A program made the position numbers and the translations under genes. Under the pieces are notes generated by a model. That model was not told the DNA's origin. It did no database searches and saw only the letters and a list, made by a program, of their open reading frames with translations. A stretch of DNA of 64,000 bases, taken from a virus. Below are positions 20,838 to 58,924 of the stretch, piece after piece. The stretch is from positions 62,001 through 126,000 of IMG/VR virus record IMGVR_UViG_3300036770_008028. One strand, given 5' to 3'. Within the stretch, counting starts at the first letter, position 1. Each line of letters begins with the position of its first letter.

Positions 20838-20886
20838 GTTGTTTGATAGCGTTGAATTAAATCAACTAATACAAAGGGAAAAAGAA

Positions 20887-21849
20887 ATGGCTTACAGTTC
20901 TGGATCACTGATCATCGATGATGATTATAATATATTTGCCACGGGCAATGCCTCCGGCACAGGCGACAACAACGTGGCCAATCTCAACACGGTCTGGGGT
21001 ACCGGAACCGGAGACAAGGGATGGGGACAGAGTAGCCCAGTTTCCGCGGTGAGCGCCGGATCGGTGATCACGGCCACACAATGGACCACGCTGCTTAATC
21101 GCATGACGGCCGAGGCCAATCATACCAATACTTCGATCACAGCAATTTCAAATCCCAGCGCAGGACAAACTATCACTGCTTTCACTGCTCTCAGCACCAA
21201 TATCACCAACATTTTCAATGGTCGTAACAATGCCGCTGCTGTAGGATCCACTATCACCCTTAATGGTGTAGCCACGCGTAGCACCGCCTGGGCAACATCT
21301 CTCACAGCCACGCACACTGTAACATTCGCTTCCGCAGATGCCATGCGCTACTTCTTCAACGCAGGCGGACGTATCACCTGGGCCGGCGCACGTTCAGGTG
21401 GATCGGTCAATGACAAAAACACTTCCTGGACCAATCTTCTCACAGCCTGCGGTACGCTGAACTGGACCACGGGCACATCTACCCAGACCATCGCAGGAAC
21501 TTCCTACACTGGAACCACCAAAGTGGGTGGCTCTGGTTCTCCTACCACACTGTTGACTGGCACTGGTTTCTATGATCTGACCACGGGCAACACCGAAGTA
21601 TTCAAGCAATTTGCCAGCACATATCTTTACACCGTGAACTTTGTTTCCGTCAATGTGAGTTTGAATGCTGTTCCGGGTTCTTCCACAGTAATGACTTTCA
21701 CTGTGCTGTTTTCGGATGTGGAAGCCTCTCCAGAAGAGAACGTGGACGGTACCTTGACATCCACCATAACCGCCGTGGCACCCAGCACTACCTATCTCTC
21801 AGCATCCTGGGGCACACCCACACTGGCCAGTTCGATCACCGGTAGCTAA
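20887..21849 (+). CDS. Ser/Thr/Gly-rich virion protein
   Basis: A 320-residue protein. ATG 20887 is preceded by AAAGGGAAAAAG, a good ribosome site, so the in-frame TTG at 20839 is not needed. The N-terminus ('SSGSLIIDDDYNIFATGNAS', then 'VWGTGTGDKGWGQ' and 'VITATQWTTLLNRMTAEANH') is typical of beta-rich virion or fibre proteins in T4-like phages of aquatic bacteria. No catalytic motif is visible. It has its own leader with the two-hairpin element at 20797-20837 and an intrinsic terminator at 21882-21909, so it may be a stand-alone, strongly expressed transcript. Virion role is inferred from style and position. Confidence 0.7.
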   Translation: MAYSSGSLIIDDDYNIFATGNASGTGDNNVANLNTVWGTGTGDKGWGQSSPVSAVSAGSVITATQWTTLLNRMTAEANHTNTSITAISNPSAGQTITAFTALSTNITNIFNGRNNAAAVGSTITLNGVATRSTAWATSLTATHTVTFASADAMRYFFNAGGRITWAGARSGGSVNDKNTSWTNLLTACGTLNWTTGTSTQTIAGTSYTGTTKVGGSGSPTTLLTGTGFYDLTTGNTEVFKQFASTYLYTVNFVSVNVSLNAVPGSSTVMTFTVLFSDVEASPEENVDGTLTSTITAVAPSTTYLSASWGTPTLASSITGS

Positions 21850-21936: not shown

Positions 21937-22236
21937 ATGAGCGATCTCACTGAAAAAATACGCACTCGATTTGCCCACGAAGCCGCCAAAAAAATCCTCC
22001 GAGAAAAATATCAGGCCAAGATGCTGTTTGCACATGCAGGTGGCATGTGGCGGGCAGGCCCGGAATTACAGACCACTCTGTTGACCTGCCCTGATTCAGA
22101 GGCAGTGCTGCTCGATGTGTATGAAACACCGGTAAAAGTCCAAACACAAGAATTGTATCGTGTGTCTCAGCAGCGTTGGCAAGAGCAGATGAACGCTTGG
22201 TTGACTGAATGGACCGAACTGCAACGACAAAGATGA
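21937..22236 (+). CDS. Conserved small phage protein, 99 residues
   Basis: Highly helical, no membrane segment. It contains 'KMLFAHAGGMWRAGPELQTT' in the centre and a Trp-rich C-terminus ('RWQEQMNAWLTEW'). I recognise the general pattern from T4-like phages of aquatic bacteria but know no function. It opens the long plus-strand array after the terminator, and its TGA overlaps the ATG of the next gene (22233-22236). Confidence 0.7.
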   Translation: MSDLTEKIRTRFAHEAAKKILREKYQAKMLFAHAGGMWRAGPELQTTLLTCPDSEAVLLDVYETPVKVQTQELYRVSQQRWQEQMNAWLTEWTELQRQR

Positions 22237-23039
22237 AAGGTGTGTTGGTCTATGCTTTCAACAACGGCCGCGTGGACTATTGGCGCCAGGCCGTGTGGTG
22301 CGCTGACCGCGTGTCACGACATCTGGCCCTGCCTGTGACCATAGTGACCGATCAGCAGAGCCAACAAGATCGGCACTGCAGCCACGACATCGTGATTGCC
22401 CAGGCACGTTCTGGCGGAACTAGATTGTACGATCACAAAAATGACACAGCCGGGCACGCATGGTACAACAGCAATCGGTATCAGAGTTATGATCTAAGTC
22501 CTTACGAACAGACCCTGGTCCTGGACAGCGACTATGTGGTCTGCAGCGATCAGTTGCTGACCTTGTTTGGTAGCGGCATCTCTGTCACAGCCATGAAGCA
22601 TGTGTACGATGTGACCAACAGAGACCAATTCCGATTGTATCAACACATATCTGCGCACAGAGGATTGCATCACTATTGGGCCACTGTGCTGTACTTCGAC
22701 CGCAGTGTGCTTTCGCGAGATTTCTTTGCACTGATGAACATGATTTCCAATAACTACAATCACTATGCACAGATCTATGACATGCCCAGCCGACCTTTCA
22801 GGAATGACTTCGCTGTGAGCATAGCCTTGAACACGATATATGGTCATGTGCCGGAAGCCGTTCCAGAGATCCCCTGGGCCATGGCCAATGTTTTCAGCGA
22901 CGTAGATATCACGCAGATATCTGATGATGTGTTTGATCTCACTTATGCAGCAGGCAGCCAGGCACGGCGTGTGCGGATCTCTGGACAGGATTTCCATTTT
23001 ATGAACAAAGTGGCGTTGGAGAAGATCTGTGCAGTTTGA
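22233..23039 (+). CDS. Glycosyltransferase-like protein (GT-A type, DSD motif)
   Basis: A 268-residue protein starting at ATG 22233, which overlaps the previous stop (ATGA). The opening 'GVLVYAFNNGRVDYWRQAVW' and 'LPVTIVTD' form the first beta-alpha unit of a nucleotide-sugar fold, and 'LVLDSDYVVC' (about residues 91-100) supplies the D-x-D metal and sugar-nucleotide motif of GT-A transferases. The partner gene at 23029 has the same architecture. Substrate unknown. Probably part of the phage's glycan-modification cassette. Confidence 0.65.
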   Translation: MKGVLVYAFNNGRVDYWRQAVWCADRVSRHLALPVTIVTDQQSQQDRHCSHDIVIAQARSGGTRLYDHKNDTAGHAWYNSNRYQSYDLSPYEQTLVLDSDYVVCSDQLLTLFGSGISVTAMKHVYDVTNRDQFRLYQHISAHRGLHHYWATVLYFDRSVLSRDFFALMNMISNNYNHYAQIYDMPSRPFRNDFAVSIALNTIYGHVPEAVPEIPWAMANVFSDVDITQISDDVFDLTYAAGSQARRVRISGQDFHFMNKVALEKICAV

Positions 23040-23838
23040 ACACGAACGCGGATACTTGGTGATCGCCCAGAATACTGACACAGTGGACTATCTGCGCTGT
23101 GCCCGTGTGTTGGCCCGTAGCCTGCGCCGTGTGGAACCCGAGGCCAAGATATGTCTCCTCACTGATCGCGCTGACGTTGACGCTGAAGATTTTGATTTTG
23201 TAAGGACTTTCCCCTTTGGTGACCAAAGCGGAGACAGTGAGTGGAAGTTGCACAACGATTGGCAGTGCTTCTATGCTACGCCTTTCCGCCAGACCATCAA
23301 GATCGAAGCCGACGTAGTGGTACCCCACAGGATAGATCATTGGTTTGATGTCTGCCAGAGTCGAGACGTGGTCTTGACCATTGGTGCGAGAAACTGGCGC
23401 AACGAGTTATCCCCATCCCGTCATTATCGCAAAGTGTTTGACGACAACGACCTTCCTGATGTATACAATGCCATCACTTACTGGAGATTTAGCCGAGACG
23501 CTGAGATCTTTTTCAATACAGTAAAAAAGATCATGGGGGCCTGGCCAGCAGTGATGTCCGAATTAAAATTCGCGGCTGATCAACCCGTGAACACTGATCT
23601 GGCCTATGCGGTAGCAGCAAAGATGCTGGGCACAGAAAAATTCACGTTGCCGATGTCGGTTCCTAGCATGATACATCTCAAGCCTAGATTCAATAATCTG
23701 GCCTCTGACTCCTGGTGCAAAGAACTGGTATGGGAGATACTGCCCGATGGCATACGCATCAATACCGTGAACCAGACATGGCCTATACACTATCAGGAAA
23801 AAGCATTCGCCGAAGAGTTGGAGCGCCACTATGGATGA
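23029..23838 (+). CDS. Glycosyltransferase-like protein (GT-A type)
   Basis: A 269-residue protein starting at GTG 23029, with GGAG 7 nt upstream, overlapping the previous gene by 11 nt. The N-terminus 'GYLVIAQNTDTVDYLRCARV' and 'KICLLTDRAD' parallels the upstream protein. The metal-motif position reads 'IKIEADVVVP' (E-A-D), a relaxed D-x-D. A later region contains 'FAADQPVNTDLAYAVAAK', similar to substrate-side residues in such proteins. Paralogous to the upstream gene in organisation but not closely in sequence. Donor and acceptor are unknown. Confidence 0.65.
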   Translation: MQFEHERGYLVIAQNTDTVDYLRCARVLARSLRRVEPEAKICLLTDRADVDAEDFDFVRTFPFGDQSGDSEWKLHNDWQCFYATPFRQTIKIEADVVVPHRIDHWFDVCQSRDVVLTIGARNWRNELSPSRHYRKVFDDNDLPDVYNAITYWRFSRDAEIFFNTVKKIMGAWPAVMSELKFAADQPVNTDLAYAVAAKMLGTEKFTLPMSVPSMIHLKPRFNNLASDSWCKELVWEILPDGIRINTVNQTWPIHYQEKAFAEELERHYG

Positions 23839-24160
23839 ATTCTGGAAAGCAGTGGCAGAGGTCAACTGGGCTCCGCCTCCTCCGCCCGAATATCGTGTGT
23901 ATTACGATCCTGCCACTGGTGACATCATCGAGTACACCACCGAACATCACGACGGGGAATTTATCGTGGTGGACCGAGAAACATTTGCCTGCAATCGATT
24001 TGAACCCAAGATACGCGACGGGAGGATCACTTGGCCAGGTCCGCAAATCACCAAATTGGTACACAGTGCTGAGGGCACGACCTGCGATCCCTATGACATC
24101 ACGATCATCACAGATGCGCTCGAAGCACAACATTGGAGATTGAAGATCTATGAAAGTTGA
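23831..24160 (+). CDS. Unknown 109-residue protein
   Basis: ATG 23831 overlaps the previous gene by 8 nt. The protein has a proline run (APPPPP) near residue 15, then a beta-rich domain with 'YDPATGDIIEYTTE' and 'GEFIVVDRETFACNRFEPKI'. No catalytic motif. It overlaps the next gene by 11 nt. It is always flanked here by glycosyltransferase-like genes, so it may be an accessory part of that cassette (inference). Confidence 0.6.
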   Translation: MDEFWKAVAEVNWAPPPPPEYRVYYDPATGDIIEYTTEHHDGEFIVVDRETFACNRFEPKIRDGRITWPGPQITKLVHSAEGTTCDPYDITIITDALEAQHWRLKIYES

Positions 24161-25076
24161 TATCGCAGAACTGGACTGTGTATACCTCAGTTACGATGAA
24201 CCCGAGAAAGAAGAATTCTGGGTCAAGATACGAAATATGGTGCCCTGGGCTCGGCGTGTGGATGGTGTGAAAGGATCCGATGCTGCACACAAGGCTGCTG
24301 CCGATGCTTCAGACACAGAACGTTTTATCTTGATTGACGGTGACAATATTCCGGATCCGGAGTTTTTTAATCTCACCATGGAATTCCCAGACGAGTCATG
24401 GGAGCAGGCGGTGTTCCGTTGGCGTGCCCGCAATCATATCAATGGTCTCATGTACGGTAACGGTGGTATCAGTTCGTGGACAAAGGATTTTGTGCTTAAC
24501 ATGAAGACCCACGAAAATACCGACGGACGCGACGAGACCGTAGTGGAATTTTGTTTTGATCCCTTGTATTGGCCCATGCACGATTGTTACAGTACCACGT
24601 ATCCTAATGGGTCGGCTTTCCATGCCTGGCGTGCAGGATTCCGTGAAGGTGTGAAGATGTGTTTGGATGCCGGCCGTCGTCCTACCACGGCAGAATTCCG
24701 TGACCGAGTACATCGACGCAATCTCGATCATCTCACTATCTGGCACAATGTAGGACAGGATGTGGAACATGGTGCATGGGCCATAGCTGGTGCTCGTCAA
24801 GGTACCTTTAAGACCATGCTTACAGACTGGGATTATAGAGAAGTACAATGGTTTGATGCGCTGGAACGTATATGGAACGAAGAAACAGCACAGCAAGATC
24901 CTGACAGCATCAGTAGAGATTGCGAAGATGCGCTAAAAATCCAACTGGATTTGCCTATGTGCATGATGCCGGCGTCGCAGAGTCGATTTTTCAAACATCA
25001 CTATCGTAGCAACTGGCACAATCGAGGAGTGATGACACGAGAGATTGACGTGATAAGGCAACAAGAAGGATGGTAA
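24150..25076 (+). CDS. Glycosyltransferase-like protein with DGD motif
   Basis: A 308-residue protein starting at ATG 24150. It begins with a beta strand and 'YLSYDEPEKEEFWVKIRNMV', then 'RRVDGVKGSDAAHKAAADAS' (about residues 36-55) and 'RFILIDGDNIPD', where D-G-D is the presumed metal-binding DxD. The C-terminal part has 'LYGNGGISSW'-type aromatic and glycine motifs ('MYGNGGISSWTKDFVL'). It is clearly homologous to the third domain of the 610-residue protein at 42191, which lacks the DGD. Conserved in large aquatic T4-like phages. Function inferred as sugar transfer. Confidence 0.65.
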   Translation: MKVDIAELDCVYLSYDEPEKEEFWVKIRNMVPWARRVDGVKGSDAAHKAAADASDTERFILIDGDNIPDPEFFNLTMEFPDESWEQAVFRWRARNHINGLMYGNGGISSWTKDFVLNMKTHENTDGRDETVVEFCFDPLYWPMHDCYSTTYPNGSAFHAWRAGFREGVKMCLDAGRRPTTAEFRDRVHRRNLDHLTIWHNVGQDVEHGAWAIAGARQGTFKTMLTDWDYREVQWFDALERIWNEETAQQDPDSISRDCEDALKIQLDLPMCMMPASQSRFFKHHYRSNWHNRGVMTREIDVIRQQEGW

Positions 25077-27123: not shown

Positions 27124-27572
27124 AACAGGTTCCTGTGTCTCTGATGATACAATCCCATCATTGTAACGGATCAATGTCTTTGAAACTGTTCAACGATGAT
27201 CGGAATCTTCTAGATTTGACAAGTCTAGAATCGGGCCATCACAAACTAGATTTCATGATCGACTGGCCTTCAAAGATAAGGATCTTTGTCGAAGGAAAAA
27301 ATCAAAACGATACCGAGGTCGACAGCGGTGGTAATGTGATAGCAGATAAAGCCATTGAACTCATCTCAATCATGATAAACAATTTTCCATTACATCCTGA
27401 TCTAATAGATAAATTATGTTGCTGCCGCAGATCAAATCAACAGTCTATAAGTCATGAGAATTATTGGGGCTTTAATGGACTAGTGGAAATCATTTTCGAT
27501 CATGCCAACCCATTGAGATTTATGTTGGCATTATCGAGTAAATTTGAAATACCACGATTAGAAAATCAATGA
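27120..27572 (+). CDS. Predicted beta-sandwich protein, possibly carbohydrate-binding
   Basis: A 150-residue protein with alternating beta pattern. The segment 'GNVIADKAIELISIMINNF' followed by 'ENYWGFNGLVEIIFDHANPL' aligns in order with the 156-residue protein at 54221-54691 ('IIDHYVEIMDIEIASIRLEH' and 'LRLNGIWSMDFTTPFWQW'). Both sit immediately beside a radical SAM gene. The shape suggests a CBM-like sandwich, but no ligand site is proven. ATGA overlaps on both sides show coupled translation. AT-rich like the preceding gene. Confidence 0.5.
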   Translation: MKQVPVSLMIQSHHCNGSMSLKLFNDDRNLLDLTSLESGHHKLDFMIDWPSKIRIFVEGKNQNDTEVDSGGNVIADKAIELISIMINNFPLHPDLIDKLCCCRRSNQQSISHENYWGFNGLVEIIFDHANPLRFMLALSSKFEIPRLENQ

Positions 27573-28969
27573 CCACTAACAAAAGCCAATTCCTCAGCGA
27601 CGCTGAATCGATAAAAGAACGACTGGATTCAGTGAGCCCTTGCCTGTGCTTGGCCAAATGGAAGCAGGTCAGCCTGCACCTTACTACTGGACTCAATAAT
27701 AGTTGTTACCATCCACCGTTACATCGCATACCCATAGAAGAGATCAAACGCGATCCGGGTGCGTTACACAATACCCAGCACAAAAAAGAGCAACGGAAAA
27801 TGATGTTGCGTGGCAAAAGGCCTGCTGAATGTCAGTACTGTTGGAACATGGAAGATCTTGGTCAGATGTCGGACCGTCACTATCGTTCTGGAGAGCCCTG
27901 GGCTGCCGTGGATTTCGACCATATCGCAAATTCAACCGGAGATGAAGATGATGTCGTACCTAGTTATGTTGAAGTTAATTTTAATCACGCTTGCAATCTC
28001 AAGTGCAGCTATTGTAGTCCACAATTTTCGTCATCTTGGCAGGATGAATCGCAACGTCTGGGTGCCTATCCTACTAGCACTCCTCATAACGCTCCCGAGC
28101 ATTTCCTTGGAGATCGTCGCCCGATCCCTGTGAGAGAATATAATCCCTATGTGGAAGCCTTCTGGCAGTGGTGGCCTACACTGTATCCCAAACTCAGGCA
28201 TTTCCGCATGACCGGTGGCGAGCCGCTCATGGACAAGAACACATATCGAGTGTTTGACTACGTATTGGCCTTGCCCAAACCAGATCTGCATCTCAACGTC
28301 ACAAGCAACTTCTCGGTGGAAGAGAAACTGTGGCAGAAGTATCTAGACTATACCAAAAGTCTTTGCTCGACCAATATCGAACACTTCATGCAGTATGTTT
28401 CAATCGATTCGGGCTATATCGCACATGCCGAATACATACGCCACGGATTAGATGCTGCCAAATGCCTAGGACGTGTGGCACAGTGGCTGGATGAGATACC
28501 GGGACGAAACAGTCTCACTTTCATAATCACTATGAACAATCTGTCAGTGCTGGGTCTGCAGAAACTTTTGGAATTTGTTTTAGATCTAAGACGCACACAC
28601 AGCACCACCTATCAACGTGTGTGGTTCGACACGCCGGTGCTTCGACAGCCTGCTTGGCAGAGCCTGCAGACCTTGCCCGAAAGTTATGCTGCCATCTTGG
28701 AACGCACCGCAGACTGGATGGAACTGAACATGGAAACCGCAGCGGATCCTTTCCACGGATTCAAAGATTTCGAAGTGCAACGTCTGAGGCGTGACATAGC
28801 CTGGATGCGTAAAGGTCAGACCTTGCCGGCGCAGCAAGTAAATAAAGACAAAGCAGATTTTTATCGTTTCTTTTTAGAACACGACCGACGCCGCGGTACC
28901 AATTTCCTGTCAACATTTCCTGAAATGACTGCCTGGTGGAAAGAGTGTGAATACCATGCCAAACAATGA
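27569..28969 (+). CDS. Radical SAM protein, array member 1
   Basis: A 466-residue protein. Cluster motif C142-x3-C146-x2-C149 ('CNLKCSYCS'), SAM-binding GGEP in 'MTGGEPLMD', and a conserved 'HAEYIRHGLD' motif. An N-terminal cysteine set ('SPCLCLAKW', 'NNSCYHPP', 'ECQYCWNMED' within residues 23-95) could bind an auxiliary Fe-S cluster, like a twitch/SPASM domain placed at the N-terminus. First of five similar genes in tandem. Such enzymes modify peptides or sugars; the substrate is unknown. Confidence 0.8.
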   Translation: MTTNKSQFLSDAESIKERLDSVSPCLCLAKWKQVSLHLTTGLNNSCYHPPLHRIPIEEIKRDPGALHNTQHKKEQRKMMLRGKRPAECQYCWNMEDLGQMSDRHYRSGEPWAAVDFDHIANSTGDEDDVVPSYVEVNFNHACNLKCSYCSPQFSSSWQDESQRLGAYPTSTPHNAPEHFLGDRRPIPVREYNPYVEAFWQWWPTLYPKLRHFRMTGGEPLMDKNTYRVFDYVLALPKPDLHLNVTSNFSVEEKLWQKYLDYTKSLCSTNIEHFMQYVSIDSGYIAHAEYIRHGLDAAKCLGRVAQWLDEIPGRNSLTFIITMNNLSVLGLQKLLEFVLDLRRTHSTTYQRVWFDTPVLRQPAWQSLQTLPESYAAILERTADWMELNMETAADPFHGFKDFEVQRLRRDIAWMRKGQTLPAQQVNKDKADFYRFFLEHDRRRGTNFLSTFPEMTAWWKECEYHAKQ

Positions 28970-30296
28970 TCTAGAATTCCGCCAGCAAGTGCTGGACCCA
29001 ATCTCTTCCAGTTTCTGCGGAGCCAAATGGTACAATGCCACCATCTGGCTAGGTTCCGGCATGACCACATCATGCCACCATCCCCCGGCGCACCCGGTCG
29101 ACATTGATGCAGTGAAATCCAATCCCCGCCTGTTGCACAACACCGCCCAGAAGAAACAGGACCGTGCAGACATGCAGGCTGGTCGCAGGCCCGCAGGCTG
29201 TGAATACTGCTGGAAGATCGAAGACATGGGGCGCGATGCTGTGAGCGATCGCATATATAAGAGCAAGATTTATGAAATACATGACCTACATACGGCTGCT
29301 CGCACGCCGCCAGATCAAGATATCAATCTCAAAACCCTTGAGATATCATTTGATCGTACTTGCCAGTTTGCTTGCTCTTACTGTAATCCTGCTTTCAGTA
29401 GTACATGGGTTAAAGATATTAGGAACCATGGACCCTACCTCGACCTTGTTTCAGACGGTAGAAATCATTTTACTCACGAGCATGATAGTGCTCAACGCTT
29501 TCGCTTTGGAGAACGTAATCCATACGTGGATGCGTTTTTCTCGTGGTGGGAAACCGATCTTCACCGCACACTGGACGAACTCCGTATTACAGGCGGCGAG
29601 CCGCTCATGTCCGGATACACATGGAAACTTGTTGACTGGTTCCGGGACAATCCAGGACGATCCAAAACCAGACTGGCCATAAACTCAAATCTTGGCATGG
29701 AATTTGACACGATCAAGAGATTGTTGGATTCCACCCAGGGCCTTGAACTAGATATCTATACTTCAAACGAAAGCATGGACGTACATGCCGAGTATATCCG
29801 CGATGGCCTGGCCTGGCCCCAGTGGATCTACAACATGCGACAGATCATGGAATCCGGCCGTGTGCGAGCTCTGCACGTGATGTGCACCATAAATGCCTTG
29901 TGCCTAGAGAGCCTGCCGGAATTCCTGGATCAACTCATGTGGTGGAAAAATCACTACGGAACCAATTTCCCCAACTTTACCCTGAATATCTTGCGCTTCC
30001 CCAGTTTCCAGTCGCCCTTGGTATTGCCTGACGATATCCGCATGCGGCATCGAGATCGTCTACAGTGCTGGCTGGATCAGTGGACCAACAATGTCATGCT
30101 GCAGGAACATGAACGCAACCATGTCAGACGGCTGATAGACTATCTTGACGTTGTCAAAACTCCGCACAGCGACGCGTTTGACATGCCACGATTACACAAC
30201 GACTTCCGTCGGTTTTTTACCCAGTACGATCAACGCCGCGGTAAAGATTTTGTCACGACTTTTTCAAATCTCAAAGATTGGTATCTCTCATTATGA
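28956..30296 (+). CDS. Radical SAM protein, array member 2
   Basis: A 446-residue protein from ATG 28956; an in-frame GTG at 28947 with its own weak ribosome site is an alternative. Cluster motif C136-x3-C140-x2-C143 ('CQFACSYCN'), 'ITGGEPLMS', and 'VHAEYIRDGLAW'. The N-terminal 'SSFCGAKWY', 'TSCHHPPAHP' and 'GCEYCWKIED' match array member 1 closely, so these two are the nearest paralogues. It ends with 'FFTQYDQRRGKDFVTTFSNL', also shared with member 1. It overlaps the preceding and next genes. Confidence 0.8.
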   Translation: MPNNDLEFRQQVLDPISSSFCGAKWYNATIWLGSGMTTSCHHPPAHPVDIDAVKSNPRLLHNTAQKKQDRADMQAGRRPAGCEYCWKIEDMGRDAVSDRIYKSKIYEIHDLHTAARTPPDQDINLKTLEISFDRTCQFACSYCNPAFSSTWVKDIRNHGPYLDLVSDGRNHFTHEHDSAQRFRFGERNPYVDAFFSWWETDLHRTLDELRITGGEPLMSGYTWKLVDWFRDNPGRSKTRLAINSNLGMEFDTIKRLLDSTQGLELDIYTSNESMDVHAEYIRDGLAWPQWIYNMRQIMESGRVRALHVMCTINALCLESLPEFLDQLMWWKNHYGTNFPNFTLNILRFPSFQSPLVLPDDIRMRHRDRLQCWLDQWTNNVMLQEHERNHVRRLIDYLDVVKTPHSDAFDMPRLHNDFRRFFTQYDQRRGKDFVTTFSNLKDWYLSL

Positions 30297-31999
30297 CCAT
30301 GCTGGAACTGATAGATCAGTATCAAAAAATTTATGACGTCGTGGCAGTGATTAATCTGGATCAGTGCTTTGACGTACCGTTTTATCAAAGAGAAATTTGG
30401 CTCAAATCGCAGATCGAACCTGCGTGGAGAAACCAATTCACTGAAAATCAGCGGGTGATTTTCACCATGACTCAGGGCGAGGAGTATAGTTCGCAGCACA
30501 GCCAGCGACCCAACATACTTTCTATTGTGCAAAAACTTTTAAATGAAGTTGATATCAGCAATTGTTTTGTGATTGTGCTGACCAATGACTGCCAAAATGT
30601 CGAATCACAAAAACAATATCTCAAACAGATCAGCACAGATAGCACTGCAATCACTTGGTACGTGTTTGATGATCCTCCATGGCCTGGATCAAAGCATGTG
30701 AAATCTTTGCCACAGGATTATGAATACAATAGCAGCCGTCCTGTGAAGATCGACCTGTCAGATCTGGACATCCGACAGCAGAATCTCTTGATGCAGAGCA
30801 AAGTGTTTTGCATGTACCCATGGGTACATCTACATGCCTACCCCACCGGAGAAGCCTGGCCGTGCTGCCAATCAGAGATGAAAGCCGGTGCAGTAGGTAA
30901 TTGTAAAACGCATACCTTGAGCGAGATCTGGAACAACACGCGTATGAAAGAACTACGAGTCAACATGTTGACAGGTATCCCAGATCCGCTGTGTGTGCGA
31001 TGTTACGAGCAAGAAGACAGCGGTTTTTTTTCTGGTAGACAAAGCGCAAATAAACATCACGGTCATCACATAGGACGTGTGGCTCATACCGCTGAAGATG
31101 GCCACCTTAGTCAATTCTCATTGACATATTGGGACATCCGATTTTCAAATCTGTGCAATCTACGTTGCCGCAGTTGTGGTCACATCTTTTCGAGCCAGTG
31201 GTACCAGGATCAGGCCAAACTGGCAGGGCATGAGTGGAAGTCGCGTAATCAAGTGTTGAACTATGCCGGCCGCACAGAACTCGACATGTGGGAACAACTA
31301 GAACCTCACTTGGACTGTGTGGAGCAGATCTATTTCGCTGGTGGCGAACCTTTGCTGATGGAGGAGCACTATCGCATCCTGGACGAGCTGGTGAAACGTA
31401 AACTGTTCCATGTGCGTCTAATCTACAATACCAATTTCACACACACCGATCTCAAAGGCCGTAGTGTGTTTGAGTACTGGAAGCAATTTCACAGTGTATC
31501 TGTTGGAGCCAGCTTGGACGCACAGGAAGAAAAAGCAGAATACATCCGGAAAGGCACTGATTGGGCCGCAGTAGAACAGAACAGACGAGACATGTTGGCC
31601 ATATGTCCAGAAGTGGATTTCTATGTATCCCCCACACTGAGTGTGCTCAATGCCTGGCATTTGCCTGATTTTCATCGATCCTGGGTTGATAAAGGCTTGA
31701 TACGAGCACAGGATCTTAATGTAAACATTTTGCAGGATCCGGCATATTATCGTATAGACATAGCGCCCATGGAGTACAAACAGCGATTGAGAGTGAAGTT
31801 TGAAGAACATCTTGATTGGTTACGATCTCGAGACCCGTTGCAACGTGCTACAGTGGGATTTACCAGCGCGATTAAATTCATGATGGCCACCGATAACAGT
31901 CATCTCCTTGACAAATTTTGGTCAAAAACCAAAGAACTGGATGCTATCCGAGGAGAAAACATACTGCAAGTGCTGCCAGAATTAGAGGCCATGCAATGA
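30293..31999 (+). CDS. Radical SAM protein with N-terminal extension and twitch-like domain, array member 3
   Basis: The longest of the array at 568 residues; ATG 30293 overlaps the previous stop (ATGA). Residues 1-165 form an extra region without cysteine motifs. Then comes a twitch-like set 'FCMYPWVHLHAYPTGEAWPC' (about 172-191) and 'CVRCYEQED' (about 235). The radical SAM motif is C288-x3-C292-x2-C295 ('CNLRCRSCG'), with 'FAGGEPLLM' and 'KAEYIRKGTDW'. This domain order, twitch before barrel, is seen in a phage-enriched radical SAM group. Substrate unknown. Confidence 0.82.
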   Translation: MTMLELIDQYQKIYDVVAVINLDQCFDVPFYQREIWLKSQIEPAWRNQFTENQRVIFTMTQGEEYSSQHSQRPNILSIVQKLLNEVDISNCFVIVLTNDCQNVESQKQYLKQISTDSTAITWYVFDDPPWPGSKHVKSLPQDYEYNSSRPVKIDLSDLDIRQQNLLMQSKVFCMYPWVHLHAYPTGEAWPCCQSEMKAGAVGNCKTHTLSEIWNNTRMKELRVNMLTGIPDPLCVRCYEQEDSGFFSGRQSANKHHGHHIGRVAHTAEDGHLSQFSLTYWDIRFSNLCNLRCRSCGHIFSSQWYQDQAKLAGHEWKSRNQVLNYAGRTELDMWEQLEPHLDCVEQIYFAGGEPLLMEEHYRILDELVKRKLFHVRLIYNTNFTHTDLKGRSVFEYWKQFHSVSVGASLDAQEEKAEYIRKGTDWAAVEQNRRDMLAICPEVDFYVSPTLSVLNAWHLPDFHRSWVDKGLIRAQDLNVNILQDPAYYRIDIAPMEYKQRLRVKFEEHLDWLRSRDPLQRATVGFTSAIKFMMATDNSHLLDKFWSKTKELDAIRGENILQVLPELEAMQ

Positions 32000-33213
32000 A
32001 TGTGCCTCACGAAAAATTCTGTATCCTGCCCTGGATCAGTTTAGAAGCCAGCCCTGTTGGCACAGTGCGACCTTGTTGTCTGGCAGAAGAAGAGATCTCT
32101 GACGATGACGGAAACAAGTTTGAATTGATCGACGCAGAATTTTCTTCAGTGCAAAACAGTAGATACATGCGAGATCTCAGACAGCAATTCTTGGATCAAA
32201 AACAACCACGCACCTGTCGCAAATGCTGGAACGAGGAGCGTGCTGGCCGGACCTCCAAGCGCATGCATACCTTGGACCGTCTCAAACACATGGTCACGGA
32301 CCGTGATTGGACCGCAGATGCCAAGCCATTGATGTTCTTGGATCTCAAATTGGGAAATATCTGTAATCTCAAATGCCGTATCTGTGGGTCATGGAGCAGC
32401 AGCCAGTTTGCCGCCGAAGAGTTGCATTTCTTGAGGCAAGAAGAAAAAAAGACCAGTGTACACTATGAGATGCTGAAAAAAGGAGCATGGCCTCGAGAGA
32501 ACAAACGATTCTGGCAAGAAGTCGACACTGTGCTTGACCAGATACGCTATATCGAATTCACCGGCGGCGAACCTTTCATGATACGTGAGCACTTTGAAAT
32601 GTTACAGGGCATCGTGGATCGTGGTATCGCACACCAGGTCGAGATACACTATAATACCAATGGTACACAATGGCCGGAAGCTGCCGAACAGATCTGGCAG
32701 CACTTCAAAACAGTAGAGATCGCTTTCAGCATCGACGACCTTGACAGCAGATTTGAGTATCAAAGAACCAATGCGATATGGCAAGAAGTGATCACGAATC
32801 TACAGCGTTTCCGAGATCTTAGGTCTCGATACAAAAATATAACTCTGCAGGTATGTTCCACAGTGAACGTGTTCAATGTGTTTTATCTTGAAAGCCTGGC
32901 ACACTGGATAGACTCTCAGGATTTTGATTTCATTTATTGGAACATGCTACACGAGGCCTATTATCTTTCTGTGGGCACCATGCCAGACAAGGCCAAACAA
33001 GAAGCCATACGTAGGTTAGAAAACGCCGAGGTGAGAGATTTCCATCGCAGCGAATTCAATCGAGTGGCTGATTTCATCCGCAATGGTAACAGCCTGGACG
33101 GGAATATCTTGCGCATGAAAGTGGCCGACCTAGATCGCAAACGCAGTACGGATCTCAGAGTGGATCATCTGGATCTGGCCTTGGCCATTGATTACAACGG
33201 TCCCAATGGATAA
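31996..33213 (+). CDS. Radical SAM protein, array member 4
   Basis: A 405-residue protein; ATG 31996 overlaps the previous stop (ATGA), so the longer in-frame extension to 31918 is not used. Twitch-like N-terminus 'FCILPWISLEASPVGTVRPC' plus 'TCRKCWNEE'. Cluster motif C123-x3-C127-x2-C130 ('CNLKCRICG'), 'FTGGEPFMI', and a degenerate 'RFEYQRTNAIW' in place of (A/G)EYIRxGxDW. The most divergent array member at that conserved site. Confidence 0.8.
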   Translation: MNVPHEKFCILPWISLEASPVGTVRPCCLAEEEISDDDGNKFELIDAEFSSVQNSRYMRDLRQQFLDQKQPRTCRKCWNEERAGRTSKRMHTLDRLKHMVTDRDWTADAKPLMFLDLKLGNICNLKCRICGSWSSSQFAAEELHFLRQEEKKTSVHYEMLKKGAWPRENKRFWQEVDTVLDQIRYIEFTGGEPFMIREHFEMLQGIVDRGIAHQVEIHYNTNGTQWPEAAEQIWQHFKTVEIAFSIDDLDSRFEYQRTNAIWQEVITNLQRFRDLRSRYKNITLQVCSTVNVFNVFYLESLAHWIDSQDFDFIYWNMLHEAYYLSVGTMPDKAKQEAIRRLENAEVRDFHRSEFNRVADFIRNGNSLDGNILRMKVADLDRKRSTDLRVDHLDLALAIDYNGPNG

Positions 33214-34504
33214 ACCGACTACCTTGTGTATGGCGCCCTGGACTCATACCTATCTGAGTCCGCAGACTGAGCGTCGCCTGTGCTGCGCCAGCCGAGAACC
33301 TGCACAGAATTTCCAGCAGTACATTGACACAGCCGCGGGCACAGGCGAATACATTCCCATCACGCTGGAACAGCACTGGAACTCGGAACACATGCGTTCG
33401 GTTCGCAGGCGCATGATGGCCGGAGAGATCTTGCCCGAATGCGACGTGTGCAACAACAAACTGTTGAACACCGATGTATATCGCACATACTTCAATGGAT
33501 TGTTCGGTCACAAATACCAAGAGGCCATGCACAGCACAGACCAAGATGGCCGTACCACTATGCTGCCAGTGAGCTGGGATTATCGATTCAGTAATCTCTG
33601 TAATTTCAAATGTCGTACCTGTGGCGACATGCTGAGTTCGGCATGGGAAAGTGAACAACGGCAGCACAAAATGATAGATTGGACCAATCCTAAGAACGGT
33701 TGGATGGTTCCAGCAGTACGTCAAGAAATCGTCAAGTTCCAAGAAACTCAGATAGAACAAGAATTCGCAGAAGCAGTAGAACAACACCGTGTGGAAGAAA
33801 TATATTGGGTGGGAGGCGAGCCATTGATGTATGAGCAACACTGGCGATACATGAAACGTATCGTAGAACTCGGTGATGGACCCAGACTCTATGCCAGATA
33901 TAATACCAATCTCTCTAGGGTAGATTATCGCGGTATCAATCTTTATCTGGACATCCTACGTCATGTAAGAGATTGGCAGATCTGCGCCAGCCTCGATGGA
34001 ACCGGTGCTGTGGGAGAATATATCCGCACCGGACTTGACTACGAGCAGTGGAAACAAAACTTTGCTCGCGGACTAGACATATCCCGCCATCGCAGGCAGA
34101 TGAGAATCGACTTCACTCTTACACTTCCGGGACTGTTCGAAGTAGCCAATATTCAAGCATTGTCTCAAGAATTTGACGTGGACATCCTGGCCAAGGTTGT
34201 GTTCAGTTTCACGCCGGACATCATAATGAGTCCGTTGGTATTACCACGTAATTTACTGGATCGCATGATAGATCGATCACTAGATGGTCTACCCCCGGGC
34301 GCACTGCGAGACGTATTGACTCAATTAAAAACCAGACCAACCTTCCAGGAACAATGGCCGGATACATGGCAGGCAGGATTGATCAAAGGCAAGCGACGAA
34401 TTCTCAAGATTGAAAGTGTACGCAATGATACCTACAAATTTGAGGACATCATACAACAAGATGAGGAGATATATGCCTGGTGGCAAGATATTAGAACGGA
34501 TTGA
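33206..34504 (+). CDS. Radical SAM protein, array member 5
   Basis: A 432-residue protein from ATG 33206 (8-nt overlap). Twitch-like start 'LCMAPWTHTYLSPQTERRLC' and 'ECDVCNNKLL'. Cluster motif C132-x3-C136-x2-C139 ('CNFKCRTCG'), 'WVGGEPLMY', and 'VGEYIRTGLDYEQW'. It ends the radical SAM run and overlaps the next, unrelated gene by 32 nt. Confidence 0.8.
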   Translation: MDKPTTLCMAPWTHTYLSPQTERRLCCASREPAQNFQQYIDTAAGTGEYIPITLEQHWNSEHMRSVRRRMMAGEILPECDVCNNKLLNTDVYRTYFNGLFGHKYQEAMHSTDQDGRTTMLPVSWDYRFSNLCNFKCRTCGDMLSSAWESEQRQHKMIDWTNPKNGWMVPAVRQEIVKFQETQIEQEFAEAVEQHRVEEIYWVGGEPLMYEQHWRYMKRIVELGDGPRLYARYNTNLSRVDYRGINLYLDILRHVRDWQICASLDGTGAVGEYIRTGLDYEQWKQNFARGLDISRHRRQMRIDFTLTLPGLFEVANIQALSQEFDVDILAKVVFSFTPDIIMSPLVLPRNLLDRMIDRSLDGLPPGALRDVLTQLKTRPTFQEQWPDTWQAGLIKGKRRILKIESVRNDTYKFEDIIQQDEEIYAWWQDIRTD

Positions 34505-35567
34505 AATAGGTTTACGCAACACAACCGATGAATCGATTCTCAGGATTTATATGGATGCCTATGATAACAGCTTGAGTCGAAAATGGCTGCAATCACTAGA
34601 GCACTGCCTGGCGGAACAATATCATCTAGAGAAAAATTACTGTTTCATGGGCTTTGTCACACATCGTCGTGACGGCGAATTTATTCTGCGTCAGATCAAC
34701 AACTCGATCGCAGCCATCAATGACAGTGCGCTGCCATATCACATAGATGATCAGTTTACCATGGAGAACACTATCCATGAGCATCCGTTGCCTGGCTGGC
34801 AGCATGGTAAAATGCTGAATCAAGATAAATTTAATGCGCTACATAGATATTTTGAAGATCTACAAGGAGTCAGCGGCAATCTCAGTGGATTATACAAACA
34901 GGCCACTGCTGAGATTCGTTGGCACATCAGGCAATTGAATTTGCTCTGTCACGAATTTGAAACATGGGCAATCAGTTATCGCAAATTACACATGGCACCC
35001 GAATGGCAGAGACCAAGTCAATTGATGTGCTGGCTAAATGCTCCAAGATTTATGCTGGATCAAGAAGACTACGAACTTTTTGGCATTGACACCATCAATA
35101 GATCACTGGGCGGAGTGTTTGTGGGTGTAAACAAAGCTGTGGGCAAACATCATTGGGAGGTTTTCCATGATGAAGGTAGGGACAGTAGAATAAATGAACT
35201 TACAACGTCAACCATGAAGGTTCAGACAGAGGCTTCGGCAGATTTTGACATTGAGTGGGCCAGAGATCCCGGTGGGTTTGACTGGCAGATACAGGAACTC
35301 AATGAATTTCGACGATGGTTGATAGTCAATGGATTTGATCCAGAAGACAAATCATTGACCATCGGTCATCCTCAGATTGGCCAGATAGATCTTTTGAACT
35401 CCTTTGGTACAGACCATTATGACAGCATATGGAAAATATTGTCCCAGCATCTAGATGTGAAATACATAAAGACATCGACGGTTAGAGCGGATTATCCTTA
35501 CTGTTGGAGCGATCAAGATTTCATGCATCAACAGATAGAATTGATTGAAAATGGAGCATCATTATGA
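34473..35567 (+). CDS. Unknown 364-residue phage protein
   Basis: I choose ATG 34473 because AGGAG lies 4-5 nt before it; the frame is open further up to 34410. The protein is soluble and rich in aromatic and acidic residues, with 'ALPYHIDDQFTMENTIHEHP' and 'NAPRFMLDQEDYELFG', and no family I can name with certainty. Histidine/aspartate clusters such as 'HIDDQ' and 'HEHPLPGW' could bind metal, but no spacing pattern is conclusive. Translated with the radical SAM array and the 33-residue peptide, with overlaps on both sides, so it likely acts in the same process. Confidence 0.6.
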   Translation: MPGGKILERIEIGLRNTTDESILRIYMDAYDNSLSRKWLQSLEHCLAEQYHLEKNYCFMGFVTHRRDGEFILRQINNSIAAINDSALPYHIDDQFTMENTIHEHPLPGWQHGKMLNQDKFNALHRYFEDLQGVSGNLSGLYKQATAEIRWHIRQLNLLCHEFETWAISYRKLHMAPEWQRPSQLMCWLNAPRFMLDQEDYELFGIDTINRSLGGVFVGVNKAVGKHHWEVFHDEGRDSRINELTTSTMKVQTEASADFDIEWARDPGGFDWQIQELNEFRRWLIVNGFDPEDKSLTIGHPQIGQIDLLNSFGTDHYDSIWKILSQHLDVKYIKTSTVRADYPYCWSDQDFMHQQIELIENGASL

Positions 35568-35665
35568 AATGGCTTAAAAATATTTTCTACAAGATACGCC
35601 TGGAAGTGCGTTACCGGAAAAAATTACGAGACCTGCGCAAAAGAGATCCGTTTATCTATAAATGA
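35564..35665 (+). CDS. 33-residue highly basic peptide
   Basis: ATG 35564 and TGA 35663-35665 overlap the previous stop and the next start as ATGA on both sides, strong evidence of real translation. The sequence begins MKWLKNIFYKIRLEVRY and ends LRDLRKRDPFIYK, with about 12 Lys/Arg, forming a probable amphipathic helix. Similar tiny proteins ending RKRDPFIY occur in related phages, in my recollection. Function is unknown. Its place right after radical SAM genes raises the untested idea that it is a substrate peptide. Confidence 0.7.
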   Translation: MKWLKNIFYKIRLEVRYRKKLRDLRKRDPFIYK

Positions 35666-36312
35666 AACTTTTGACACTGGGATGTAGTTTTACCCGAGGC
35701 AGCGAATTAGTAGAACCAAATGTCACGTCGTGGCCAGTCGTGTTGGCCACAAAGTTGGGATGGGACGTCGATAACCGCGCAGAATTTAATGGTAGCAATG
35801 ACATGATGTTTCGTAAGGCCATAGAGCGAGATCAAGATTACGATCTTGTCATAGTGGCCTGGAGTGAGGCACATCGCATGGAAGTGTGGCTCAATGACAA
35901 GATAATTTCAGCACGCCGACGCCATCCCATTGGGCCGTTCAGTGTGAATCACAATTCAGCAGGACAGACACTGGAATGGGTGAAACCTTTTTTCGCCAAC
36001 CACTACGACGAACAGTATTTCTTGAGAAAGTGGTTGTGCCAAGCGGTAAGTTTACAGGATCATTTCAAACTGCACAGTCAGCGCTATGTTTTTCTCACGG
36101 CTTTTGGCAACGAGGAACCTTTGAAAAACTATCAAGGTGTGTTAAAATCTAAGATTGACACAGATCGTTGGGTAGGATGGCCGGATCAGAGTATCATGAC
36201 ATGGACTGCGGGTCTGCCCTATGGTCCCTACGGACACCCACTAGAACAAGGACATGCTGTAGTGGCAGATAAAATCTATGAACATATTAGGCATCTCGGC
36301 TGGGTTTCATGA
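35662..36312 (+). CDS. SGNH-hydrolase-like protein
   Basis: A 216-residue protein. It opens 'LLTLGCSFTRGSEL', the block I nucleophile pattern G-x-S of SGNH/GDSL proteins (S9), contains 'DLVIVAWSEAHRMEVW', and ends with 'YGHPLEQGHAVVADKIYEHI', resembling block V (x-x-H) although the canonical DxxH aspartate is not clear. Members often remove acetyl groups from glycans. ATG 35662 overlaps the preceding stop, and the gene overlaps the carbamoyltransferase by 35 nt. Confidence 0.65.
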   Translation: MKLLTLGCSFTRGSELVEPNVTSWPVVLATKLGWDVDNRAEFNGSNDMMFRKAIERDQDYDLVIVAWSEAHRMEVWLNDKIISARRRHPIGPFSVNHNSAGQTLEWVKPFFANHYDEQYFLRKWLCQAVSLQDHFKLHSQRYVFLTAFGNEEPLKNYQGVLKSKIDTDRWVGWPDQSIMTWTAGLPYGPYGHPLEQGHAVVADKIYEHIRHLGWVS

Positions 36313-37759
36313 TGCTGCTGTGAGCATTGTGTCGCCTCAGGGCGACATACTGTTCGCCGGTCACAGTGAACGTTATAGCCGTATCAAGAATGACTCCAGC
36401 ATACATCCAGATCTGCTGAAAGAATGCTGCGACTATGAGTTTGATACCGTGGCCTTCTATGAACGTCCTTGGATGCACAATTATCAACAGTGGAGATCTG
36501 GACAACGGGTCTACGGACCCTGGACCACCCGACAGGCTATACGACAGCATCTTGGTTCATGGTATCAACATCCGGCCAGGCGAGAAGTCAGTTATCGCCA
36601 TCATCTCAGCCATGCCGCATCTGGATTCCAGACTTCACCTTTCCAGGAAGCTGCTGTGGTAGTGATAGATGCCATCGGCGAGATGGATACCATATCAATC
36701 TGGCAGGCCCACTACGATGATCGTGGTCAAGCACAGTACCGATTGCGCTGGCGTCAAGGCTATCCACACAGCATAGGATTGTTTTATTCTGCAGTGACCA
36801 AGGCCGTGGGACTGAAACCCATGGAAGAAGAATACATCACCATGGGCATGGCTGCATATGGCACGGGTCTGGGCACAGCCTGGATGAAACAACAGGTCAT
36901 TGACAGCATGACGGATGTGCGCTTCCTGCGCAATCTACATATTGGGTTTGACGACCATGAGTGGTCATCTTACCACAAAGAAGATCTGGCTGCAGCAGCA
37001 CAACATCTCACTGAACTGTTGATCCGCAATGTGATGCTGCGCGCCAGGTCCTTGATCCACAGCGACAACTTGGTTTACATGGGCGGAGTGGCCTTGAACT
37101 GTGTAGCAAACTCTAGACTAGGAGACATCTATGACAAAATCTGGATCATGCCCAACCCGGGCGATGCGGGTTCCAGCCTTGGAGCCGCCGCTCTGGCTCA
37201 CGGAGGACGGCTTCGCTGGCGCGATGCTTTTCTTGGGCACGATATCCATGGTGCTTACCCTGTTCGCGATGTTCTTGATCATCTCCATACCCATCGTATC
37301 GTTGGCGTGGCTAGCGGTCGCGCTGAATGGGGCCCGCGAGCGCTGGGGAATCGTAGCCTACTCGCAGACCCCCGAGGGTCTGAAATCAAGGATCGGGTGA
37401 ATGAGATCAAACGCAGACAGAAATTCCGACCCTTTGCTCCAGTCATACTGGAAGAGTTGGCTGATGAGTATTTTGCTATGCCCCGCGGCTGGGGTCATTG
37501 CCGTTACATGCAGTCAGTCGCTCGTTGTCGGGAGCCTGACCGTTTTCCTGCTATATGCCATGTTGATGGCACCAGCCGAGTACAGACAGTACCGCAGGAT
37601 GGTTCAGGCATCCGGCAACTCCTAGAGCAATGGTATCTGCTCACAGGATGTCCTATGCTGCTGAACACCAGTCTCAACATCCGAGGAGAACCCGTGGTCA
37701 ACGATCGTGCGGATGCTGACCGATTCGAACAACTGTATGGCGTGAAAGTGTGTAGTTAG
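36278..37759 (+). CDS. Carbamoyltransferase (NodU/CmcH family)
   Basis: A 493-residue protein that transfers a carbamoyl group from carbamoyl phosphate via carbamoyl-adenylate to a hydroxyl, usually on a sugar. The N-terminal Kae1-like domain has 'MNILGISAGFHDAAVSIV', 'HHLSHAASGF' (metal-binding histidines), 'YMGGVALNCVANSRL' and 'NPGDAGSSLGAAALAH'. The C-terminal YrdC-like part has 'GRAEWGPRALGNRSLLADPR' and 'KFRPFAPVIL'. Slightly shorter than typical members (about 550-600). It ends the plus-strand array, and its stop overlaps that of the convergent amidinotransferase gene. Likely decorates a phage-directed glycan. Confidence 0.9.
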   Translation: MNILGISAGFHDAAVSIVSPQGDILFAGHSERYSRIKNDSSIHPDLLKECCDYEFDTVAFYERPWMHNYQQWRSGQRVYGPWTTRQAIRQHLGSWYQHPARREVSYRHHLSHAASGFQTSPFQEAAVVVIDAIGEMDTISIWQAHYDDRGQAQYRLRWRQGYPHSIGLFYSAVTKAVGLKPMEEEYITMGMAAYGTGLGTAWMKQQVIDSMTDVRFLRNLHIGFDDHEWSSYHKEDLAAAAQHLTELLIRNVMLRARSLIHSDNLVYMGGVALNCVANSRLGDIYDKIWIMPNPGDAGSSLGAAALAHGGRLRWRDAFLGHDIHGAYPVRDVLDHLHTHRIVGVASGRAEWGPRALGNRSLLADPRGSEIKDRVNEIKRRQKFRPFAPVILEELADEYFAMPRGWGHCRYMQSVARCREPDRFPAICHVDGTSRVQTVPQDGSGIRQLLEQWYLLTGCPMLLNTSLNIRGEPVVNDRADADRFEQLYGVKVCS

Positions 37760-38781
37760 AGATAGGACTCTAGTCCGCCACGGCGGCGTATGTCTTGAGT
37801 GCAACAACTGATTCCGCCGTCCCAGAAATAACTGTGACGCAGCTCTGACACGATGGGTTCTATGCGATGTCGACGGCAGAAATCAAACACATCTCGATTG
37901 TAGGCTGAAAATATCACGTGACTCTCGTCTAGCACCAAGCAGTTGACATCAAACACTGTCTCGGCCACGAATCCGGTCCACTTCTTGAGATAGGTATCAA
38001 CGAATGCTGTGAATTCTGGAGTAGGAGTCTGTCCCTGCACATACCAAGCTCCCGGAGATTCTTCATATTTGAACTTGCCTACTTCCATGGCAGCCCAGAT
38101 AGAACTGTCCCAAATCTTCAGCACTTCCCAACCGGGAAAGTCTCTGGCCAGATCTAGATTGACATCGTGCTTGCTGCTGAGGATCACTCCGGGTTTGAGG
38201 ATCGCGAATACAGCATCTCCATGCCCATCTGTGACAGCTTCATGTACGCGATATTCTGGACCCAGCACGTTATCCACGATCCAGCGAGTCTGTTCCGGGC
38301 GCAGGAAATCGCTGTTGTCGAAAAACACGTCCTGACCCACTCTCACGATACAACTGGCGCTGGCTCCGTTGAGTATGCAGTCGGGATTCCAAGTACCGCC
38401 ATGGGGATCTATCACCGCTGCTCCATAACTCTGACAGATGCGATCTAGTTCTGGCATGGGCAACACACGCAGGAGTTTTTGTCCCAGCGTGATCTGCCAG
38501 TCTCTGGGAGTGAGTGGCGGCAACGGAGCACCCTGTCCCGAAGTCTGTTGCTGTTGGAACTGGTCTTTATCTGGTAGATCCGGTCTCAGCACACGTGCAC
38601 CAAACTGTTCTATGGTGCGCTGCAAATTATCGAGATCTTCCGCGGTCTCTGACAGGATCTGTTGTAGTTGATTCCTGACCTGCGCATCTTCTATGAAATC
38701 AAAATAGTCGGGATCATAGGCACGCCCCACTATGACTTCTTCCAATGGTTGCCAACTGGTGTATGAGTTTACTGATGACAT
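37756..38781 (-). CDS. Amidinotransferase / arginine deiminase-fold enzyme
   Basis: A 341-residue protein of the pentein fold. 'SYTSWQPLEEVIVGRAYDPD' at the N-terminus is typical of glycine/arginine amidinotransferases. The catalytic set is visible as H in 'VTDGHGDAVF' and C in 'WDGGISCCTQDIRRRGG' near the C-terminus, with 'PDCILNGA' upstream. The family transfers an amidino group from arginine to an amine, or hydrolyses guanidino compounds. ATG 38781 has AAGGA 5 nt upstream and overlaps the preceding minus-strand gene by 13 nt. Last gene of a four-gene operon running from 42192. An amidino-sugar or amidino-amino-acid product is conceivable. Confidence 0.8.
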   Translation of the reverse strand: MSSVNSYTSWQPLEEVIVGRAYDPDYFDFIEDAQVRNQLQQILSETAEDLDNLQRTIEQFGARVLRPDLPDKDQFQQQQTSGQGAPLPPLTPRDWQITLGQKLLRVLPMPELDRICQSYGAAVIDPHGGTWNPDCILNGASASCIVRVGQDVFFDNSDFLRPEQTRWIVDNVLGPEYRVHEAVTDGHGDAVFAILKPGVILSSKHDVNLDLARDFPGWEVLKIWDSSIWAAMEVGKFKYEESPGAWYVQGQTPTPEFTAFVDTYLKKWTGFVAETVFDVNCLVLDESHVIFSAYNRDVFDFCRRHRIEPIVSELRHSYFWDGGISCCTQDIRRRGGLESYL

Positions 38782-49511: not shown

Positions 49512-49536
49512 ATCGGCTCCTTTAAGCATTTCTACT

Positions 49537-49565
49537 ATTATATATGAATGGTATTTTTCGGTCAA
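49537..49565 (-). promoter_or_regulatory. Sigma70-type promoter of the VWA gene
   Basis: TTGACC (49565-49560), a 17-nt spacer, then TATAAT (49542-49537) on the minus strand. The predicted start near 49530 leaves a leader of about 19 nt that contains the AAGGAG ribosome site. Confidence 0.85.
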
Positions 49566-49620
49566 CCTTGCAGCATGAGAAATTTTGCAGGCCATGACAT
49601 GGTCATCAAATACATAAAGC

Positions 49621-51015: not shown

Positions 51016-51058
51016 AGCCCTATGTCCGCTTGCGCGATGGACCCTGCCCTATTGACAC

Positions 51059-52150: not shown

Positions 52151-52180
52151 AGGGCTTTTCCTTTCGATCGTTGACTTACT

Positions 52181-52237: not shown

Positions 52238-52257
52238 TAGTAGGTGCTTACCTACTA
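52238..52257 (-). repeat. Inverted repeat at the end of the ABC operon
   Basis: TAGTAGGT-GCTT-ACCTACTA, perfect 8-bp arms, overlapping the stop codon of the radical SAM gene. No T-run follows on the minus strand, so it is either a weak terminator, a 3' mRNA stabiliser or part of the MoxR control region. Confidence 0.5.
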
Positions 52258-58136: not shown

Positions 58137-58195
58137 CAAAAAATCTCCATAAAGATGTAAGTGAAATTGCTAGTAGAAGAACTCTACACACGGTA

Positions 58196-58899: not shown

Positions 58900-58924
58900 C
58901 CTGACATTTTTGATAACAAGGCAT

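Follow-up and report, generated by a model that had tools for sequence, protein, structure and literature searches.

Five tandem radical SAM genes kept together in freshwater and marine phages: the possible core of a tailoring pathway in a host-recognition cluster

Phages rich in radical S-adenosylmethionine (SAM) genes, and host-recognition clusters that include such genes, have already been published. A 2020 study describes a host recognition cluster of pelagimyophages that contains fibre genes, glycosyltransferases (GTs), and radical SAM cassettes, and calls it a non-syntenic, hypervariable island (PMC7029224); a 2017 study reports 12 radical SAM genes and an A-type iron-sulfur (Fe-S) carrier in the marine T4-like genome TARA_ERS488813_N000010 (PMC5332604). 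We analysed a stretch of 64,000 nucleotides (the window; bases 62001-126000 of the 157,498-bp virus record IMGVR_UViG_3300036770_008028, which is itself a fragment with one radical SAM gene at its end), in which five radical SAM genes, here called R1 to R5, follow one another at positions 27569-34504. Our proposal, which we regard as evenly balanced, is that R1 to R5 form the constant core of a tailoring pathway with several steps, encoded in the host-recognition cluster of the phage; the target of the pathway is probably a surface sugar or glycoconjugate.

The original prediction, made from the sequence of the window, had pointed to five radical SAM genes in tandem, and this was borne out: R1 to R5 are consecutive open reading frames (ORFs) on the + strand, and all give full-length matches far over the curated cut-off of 170 bits for NF033640 (twitch-domain radical SAM, N_Twi_rSAM; Table 1). 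Neighbouring ORFs share 4 to 14 bases, an arrangement suggestive of a single operon with coupled translation. The ORF of R2 opens at a GTG at 28947, and its start was refined to 28956; R3 has an additional N-terminal extension of about 150 amino acids (aa) that is absent from the median orthologue (426 aa). Among the orthologues of each member (90-114 distinct sequences), CxxxCxxC and GGEP are found in 100%, and the set of four N-terminal twitch (auxiliary-cluster) cysteines in 99-100%; for example, cysteines 27, 46, 88, and 91 of R1 are invariant across 114 orthologues, as is its CxxxCxxC, and the motifs of R2 are conserved across 108. The N-terminal cysteine sets of R1 and R2 are as complete as those of the other members, so the earlier statement that members three to five carry clearer twitch-like N-termini did not hold; nor has R4 lost the EYIR-like motif of the other members, which is changed instead to FEYQR and conserved in this form (87 of 90 orthologues). 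Between R1 and its closest relative there are about 0.17, 0.11, and 0.52 substitutions at the first, second, and third codon positions, with similar values for R2 to R5; since the differences fall mostly at third positions, R1 to R5 are under purifying selection. Judged by their motifs, the five are distinct and apparently intact radical SAM enzymes, all of which bear an additional N-terminal set of cluster-binding (twitch) cysteines.

When R3 and R1 were each searched against IMG/VR, 160 loci were recovered, representing about 115 freshwater phage contig groups. The exact order R1-R2-R3-R4-R5 is found in 87 of the 160 loci, most of the others being broken by insertions alone, and all five genes are present in 80 of the 83 freshwater groups that have enough sequence. 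One locus (L269), which lacks a clear R3, departs from this in part; relocation of R3 within the same record was considered and rejected, as the best candidate scores 207 bits to R3 vs. 195 bits to R4 and is no clear orthologue. An independent sample of 63 loci was selected by a neighbouring gene (24150, family A2), requiring at least 5 kb of sequence downstream; R1 lies downstream of A2 in 61 of them. In L262 and L268, the two loci without it, the fibres and the GT-like genes remain, but R1 to R5 have been lost en bloc, and their place is occupied by other radical SAM and SGNH-like genes. Marine relatives were reached via a phage contig binned with Pelagibacter (L179; its R3 is ∼49% identical); contigs L177-L180 were placed in bacterial bins, yet have phage gene content. 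Each of the 46 testable marine loci has all five genes, but slots 4 and 5 have changed places. Relatives in which the members occur singly, independently of one another, were sought for R1 to R5, and none was found. A tblastn search with R1 or A2 of the cultured phages in INPHARED gave no match, Vibrio phages K566 and K567 being distant relatives only.

In a phylogenetic tree, the freshwater and marine copies of each member cluster together, with Shimodaira-Hasegawa-like approximate likelihood ratio (SH-aLRT) support of 100 for R1, 93 for R2, 100 for R3, 94 for R4, and 100 for R5; the tree is a quick one with long branches, in which these five clades are solid and the deep joins are not. The grouping by member indicates that the five lineages are older than the split between freshwater and marine phages, and that all five were retained on both sides of it. 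R1 and R2, described earlier as close paralogues, are indeed sisters, but are merely 31% identical. Simple tandem duplication was rejected as the origin of the set, because only R1 and R2 are sisters, and R3 and R4 group with bacterial proteins. The joint retention of R1 to R5 in phages from lakes and the sea makes it most likely that the five enzymes act one after another in a single modification pathway; the stepwise part of the original prediction is thus well supported by the whole ordered set, its old and separate lineages, and its loss as a block.

The genes around the set (Table 1) bear on what such a pathway would act upon. The structural context appears to be T4-like, with a gp6-type baseplate gene preceding the region, and two fibre-like genes follow, one of which (20839) has no library match. 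Two copies of family A1 and one of A2 lie upstream of the set in 62 of 62 testable groups. Comparison of A1 with the GT8 proteins of Vibrio phage K566 by hhalign gave a weak match (E 9e-4, probability 22.6%); in that phage, NF033640 genes alternate with GT8 genes (Pfam, above the cut-off) and GT4-like genes (below the cut-off). There is moderate evidence that A2 is a GT-A-like protein: its mean column identity is 78%, and its structural model (predicted local distance difference test 74.6) matches almost exclusively GT-A/nucleotidyltransferase folds, with Z-scores of 5.7-7.7, below the tool's safe level. Between R1 and R2, 93 of 111 groups have another putative GT-like family recognized by motif only, A4; a GT10-like assignment suggested by its TEK...GF.TF...ESYD motif was unsupported by Pfam, PHROGs, and PDB sequences, and we keep the GT-like label only. 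PDB sequence searches with families A1 to A5 gave no matches.

Downstream, the A3 gene and a carbamoyltransferase gene (36278) are present in 27 of 27 loci that have at least 6.5 kb of sequence after R5; A3 has no Pfam, NCBIfam, PHROG, or PDB sequence match. The profile of the next protein (37756) matches glycine amidinotransferase (E 7e-19) and inosamine-phosphate amidinotransferase (E 1e-13). On a Bdellovibrionaceae contig, a carbamoyltransferase gene adjoins two NF033640-type radical SAM genes. The neighbouring GT-like, carbamoyltransferase, amidinotransferase, DegT, and dehydratase/epimerase proteins narrow the substrate, predicted originally to be a peptide or a sugar, towards a sugar.

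Table 1. Features of the window (positions in the window; bits are NF033640 scores unless a Pfam family is named).
Feature	Position	Strand	Evidence
T4 gp6-like baseplate wedge protein	700..4170	+	36% identity over 87% to Sinorhizobium phage Phosso and other annotated baseplate wedge proteins
Tail-fibre-like protein (family 9)	19309..20751	+	PHROG virion structural matches; 60/62 testable loci
Fibre-like virion protein (family 7)	20839..21849	+	Putative, from position and composition; 61/62 testable loci
A1 copy 1, GT8-like	22209..23039	+	DxD-like motif (LDSDYV), C-terminal H...K
A1 copy 2, GT8-like	23029..23838	+	Weak profile match and motifs
SM5 family, small conserved protein	23831..24160	+	59/62 testable loci
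A2, GT-A-like protein	24150..25076	+	Invariant D63-G64-D65; 62/62 testable loci
R1, twitch-domain radical SAM (NF033640), 466 aa	27569..28969	+	302.9 bits
R2, twitch-domain radical SAM, 446 aa	28956..30296	+	284.3 bits
R3, twitch-domain radical SAM	30293..31999	+	397.4 bits; ATGA overlap with R2
R4, twitch-domain radical SAM, 405 aa, FEYQR variant	31996..33213	+	325.1 bits; ATGA overlap with R3
R5, twitch-domain radical SAM, 432 aa	33206..34504	+	286.4 bits
A3, conserved protein	34473..35567	+	Start uncertain, ORF opens at 34410
33-aa conserved small protein	35564..35665	+	C-terminus RKRDPFIYK; overlaps the ends of both neighbours
DUF6071 protein, SGNH-like by inspection	35662..36312	+	PF19547 E 1.6e-15
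TobZ/NodU-type carbamoyltransferase	36278..37759	+	PF02543 129.9 bits, PF16861 160.8 bits, both over cut-off
Amidinotransferase-superfamily protein	37756..38781	-	23/27 testable downstream flanks
DegT/DnrJ aminotransferase and NAD-dependent sugar dehydratase/epimerase (accessory)	43990..46036	-	PF01041 E 3e-60, PF01370 E 2e-42
Remote NF033640 member	52255..53481	-	237.3 bits (full-length); outside the conserved set

The fixed set, its loss en bloc, the sugar-active neighbours, and the position after the fibres fit the tailoring of a sugar or glycoconjugate. Each R enzyme would cleave SAM at its CxxxCxxC cluster, and the resulting 5′-deoxyadenosyl radical would drive one step each, such as an oxidation, epimerisation, deoxygenation, or bond formation on the sugar or glycoconjugate; the GT-like proteins may assemble the glycan and the carbamoyltransferase may cap it, the target being either the virion's own fibres or a host surface glycan. 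In the larger relatives, the many Fe-S clusters required could be supplied by their IscU/IscA-type genes, together with the host cysteine desulfurase. An A-type Fe-S carrier gene is found in 17 of 25 relatives' records and an IscU gene in 11 of 17, including all tested records over 315 kb, and the two are adjacent in several larger relatives (e.g., L343-L347); the window's own record, a fragment, has neither, and no convincing match to a viral IscS/cysteine desulfurase was found. In some of L343-L347, a cold-shock-like protein and further radical SAM genes are also seen beside the Fe-S carrier genes.

Several points weigh against this interpretation. None of the R1 to R5 enzymes has a known substrate. 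Support for calling A1, A2, and A4 GTs is moderate or weak, and neither A1 nor A4 has a match in Pfam. Counts from the first loci are inflated by kinship, since these loci were collected by searching with members of the set. No flippase, polymerase, or lipid-carrier gene was recognized, and in many of the listed matches the carbamoyltransferase gene and the 33-aa gene also occur as a pair away from the set, between primase-like and helicase-like genes.

The main rival is that R1 to R5 modify a phage protein directly, most likely the neighbouring fibres or adhesins (for example by epimerising or cross-linking side chains), with glycosylation coming later; we think this unlikely. In its favour, 60-61 of 62 testable loci have the fibre genes at 19309 and 20839, peptide maturases are common among the related NCBIfam models, and the radical SAM core of the predicted R3 structure matches SkfB, anSME (anSMEcpe), and viperin, the best PDB fold matches being the peptide-acting SkfB and anSMEcpe. 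However, the match covers only the common radical SAM core (the R3 profile has no match among PDB sequences), L262 and L268 keep the same fibres though R1 to R5 are gone, and the GT-like and sugar genes would be left needing an explanation.

Hypermodification of DNA or nucleotides is improbable in our judgement. It is brought to mind by the carbamoyltransferase, as a phage enzyme of the same superfamily, sharing invariant residues with 36278, makes 5-carbamoyloxymethylcytosine (PMC8670742); the family's position between primase-like and helicase-like genes in other phages points the same way. But 36278 is just 26% identical to this characterised 5-hydroxymethylcytosine carbamoyltransferase, a thymidylate-synthase-family hydroxymethylase (PF00303), the expected homologue of deoxycytidine monophosphate (dCMP) hydroxymethylase, is found in 0 of 17 records (partial records included), and GT-flanked carbamoyltransferases are reported in unmodified contigs (PMC8670742).

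An equally slim chance is given to independent accessory genes that have accumulated by chance in a variable region and share no pathway. Radical SAM genes are indeed numerous in these phages: the 157,498-bp record has nine NF033640 genes (205-399 bits, with essentially full coverage in eight and 336 of 398 positions in gene 48437-49486, in record coordinates) plus the radical SAM gene 25717, and the records compared have 6-21 NF033640 genes each in all, those of the freshwater relatives 7-21. The record's other four NF033640 genes do occur singly, coming and going, and many insertions lie within the five-gene block among relatives. Chance accumulation would, however, leave unexplained why the same five genes recur in conserved order in two deep clades and are lost as a block. 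Seven radical SAM proteins had been counted in the window, including 25717 and 52255; both were confirmed, within the larger number given above for the whole record. Nothing besides family membership ties 52255 to the set. The prediction that 25717 is a B12-type enzyme stands for its radical SAM part; support for a B12-binding domain in it is weak (E 0.005, below the cut-off). The 25717 gene and the 150-aa gene at 27120 were tried as further members of the set and rejected, their families occurring in just 3 contig groups.

Some further observations concern the surroundings of these additional genes. The small proteins encoded at 27120-27572 and 54221-54691 (150 and 156 aa) are alike by eye, and each lies beside a radical SAM gene region. 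At 48222-52186, a DUF2201 metallopeptidase/VWA protein (48222) and an AAA ATPase (51059) flank a GT-like protein (49621), adjoining the radical SAM gene 52255. L182 and L193 (Elusimicrobia bin-0981) encode six and four consecutive proteins of ~500-1,080 aa, each with an NF033640-like domain, and L182 has an asparagine-synthase-like gene in addition.

Small peptides co-occurring with the set were also sought, and one is recurrent: the 33-aa gene, two genes after R5 (35564-35665, MKWLKNIFYKIRLEVRYRKKLRDLRKRDPFIYK). It lies at most 2.5 kb upstream of the carbamoyltransferase gene in 126 of 127 loci tested, and its differences in the freshwater set (0.148, 0.053, and 0.419 at the three codon positions), together with its recurrence, indicate a real protein-coding gene. 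A scan of viral contigs for the pattern of its C-terminus gave at least 78 loci with such an ORF; among the matches listed, a carbamoyltransferase gene adjoins the ORF in 60 of 78, and in most of these 60 none of R1 to R5 is visible. Because the peptide tracks the carbamoyltransferase, including in phages without R1 to R5, it is better taken as a putative partner of that enzyme than as evidence of a peptide product of the set. The peptide has no match in cultured phages, and DUF5989, considered as a possible relative of it, gave no match. That R1 to R5 mature a short ribosomal peptide (a ribosomally synthesised and post-translationally modified peptide, RiPP) is therefore the least probable of the explanations considered, as the 33-aa gene is the only recurrent small ORF on the coding strand of the block, and no RiPP maturase model in the NCBIfam search passes its cut-off for R1 to R5, all being far below.

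Returning to the tailoring of a surface sugar or glycoconjugate, a fuller account can be put forward only tentatively: large freshwater and marine T4-like phages might run a five-step radical pathway, with phage Fe-S assembly in the larger ones, that yields a modified glycan or glyco-fibre on the virion or on the infected cell, with a carbamoyltransferase that depends on the 33-aa partner. That a virus keeps a fixed set of five radical SAM enzymes, which are costly and sensitive to oxygen, implies a product worth the cost. At the cell surface, phages compete with hosts and rivals over recognition, and a glycan or fibre tailored by radical chemistry, if true, would add a new kind of tool to that contest. 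Hundreds of contigs from lakes and the sea carry the set, so its product could be common in nature; since no substrate is known, the set is a source of new enzyme chemistry.

Three other regions of the record were noted. At 54712-58139 are a PP-loop-like protein (54712), an ATP-binding cassette (ABC) permease, an ABC ATPase, and a periplasmic-binding-like protein, possibly a complete ABC importer. A candidate tmRNA and nine tRNA genes lie at 58848-63958 on the - strand, and TctA-type tricarboxylate transporter-, glycosyltransferase-, and PstS phosphate-binding-like proteins, judged by reading the sequence, are encoded at L014:8026-12974 (134-139 kb of the record).

Compared with known systems, the locus resembles aminoglycoside and sugar pathways, in which radical SAM enzymes such as BtrN and DesII act on sugars and other steps are catalysed by an aminotransferase, amidinotransferase, or carbamoyltransferase; DesII is among the weak fold matches of the R3 model. 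The differences are that the R3 profile has no PDB sequence match and that the twitch domain is N-terminal here. By score, all nine NF033640 proteins of the record belong to that family, which is defined by sequence without an attached substrate, and a fixed five-member set is not in its definition. The CxxxCxxC and N-terminal auxiliary-cluster cysteines are present in the members outside the set too. In the open-access literature searched, no description was found of the fixed five-member freshwater and marine set, its syntenic core, or the 33-aa gene. With TARA_ERS488813_N000010, likened by description only, the phages described here share the richness in radical SAM genes of a T4-like phage and a viral Fe-S assembly gene; gene order, an orthologous set, and sugar context are not analysed in the accessible part of that paper (PMC5332604). 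The region may also resemble the pelagimyophage host recognition cluster (PMC7029224): a T4-like phage is indicated in both cases, with a gp6-like baseplate protein, fibres, and GT-like proteins nearby here. The accessible account of that cluster was not seen to mention a set of five enzymes, a carbamoyltransferase unit, or the small gene, and unlike the island it portrays, the core here is syntenic (upstream flanks, 62 of 62; downstream, 27 of 27), and it is mainly the insertions that vary.

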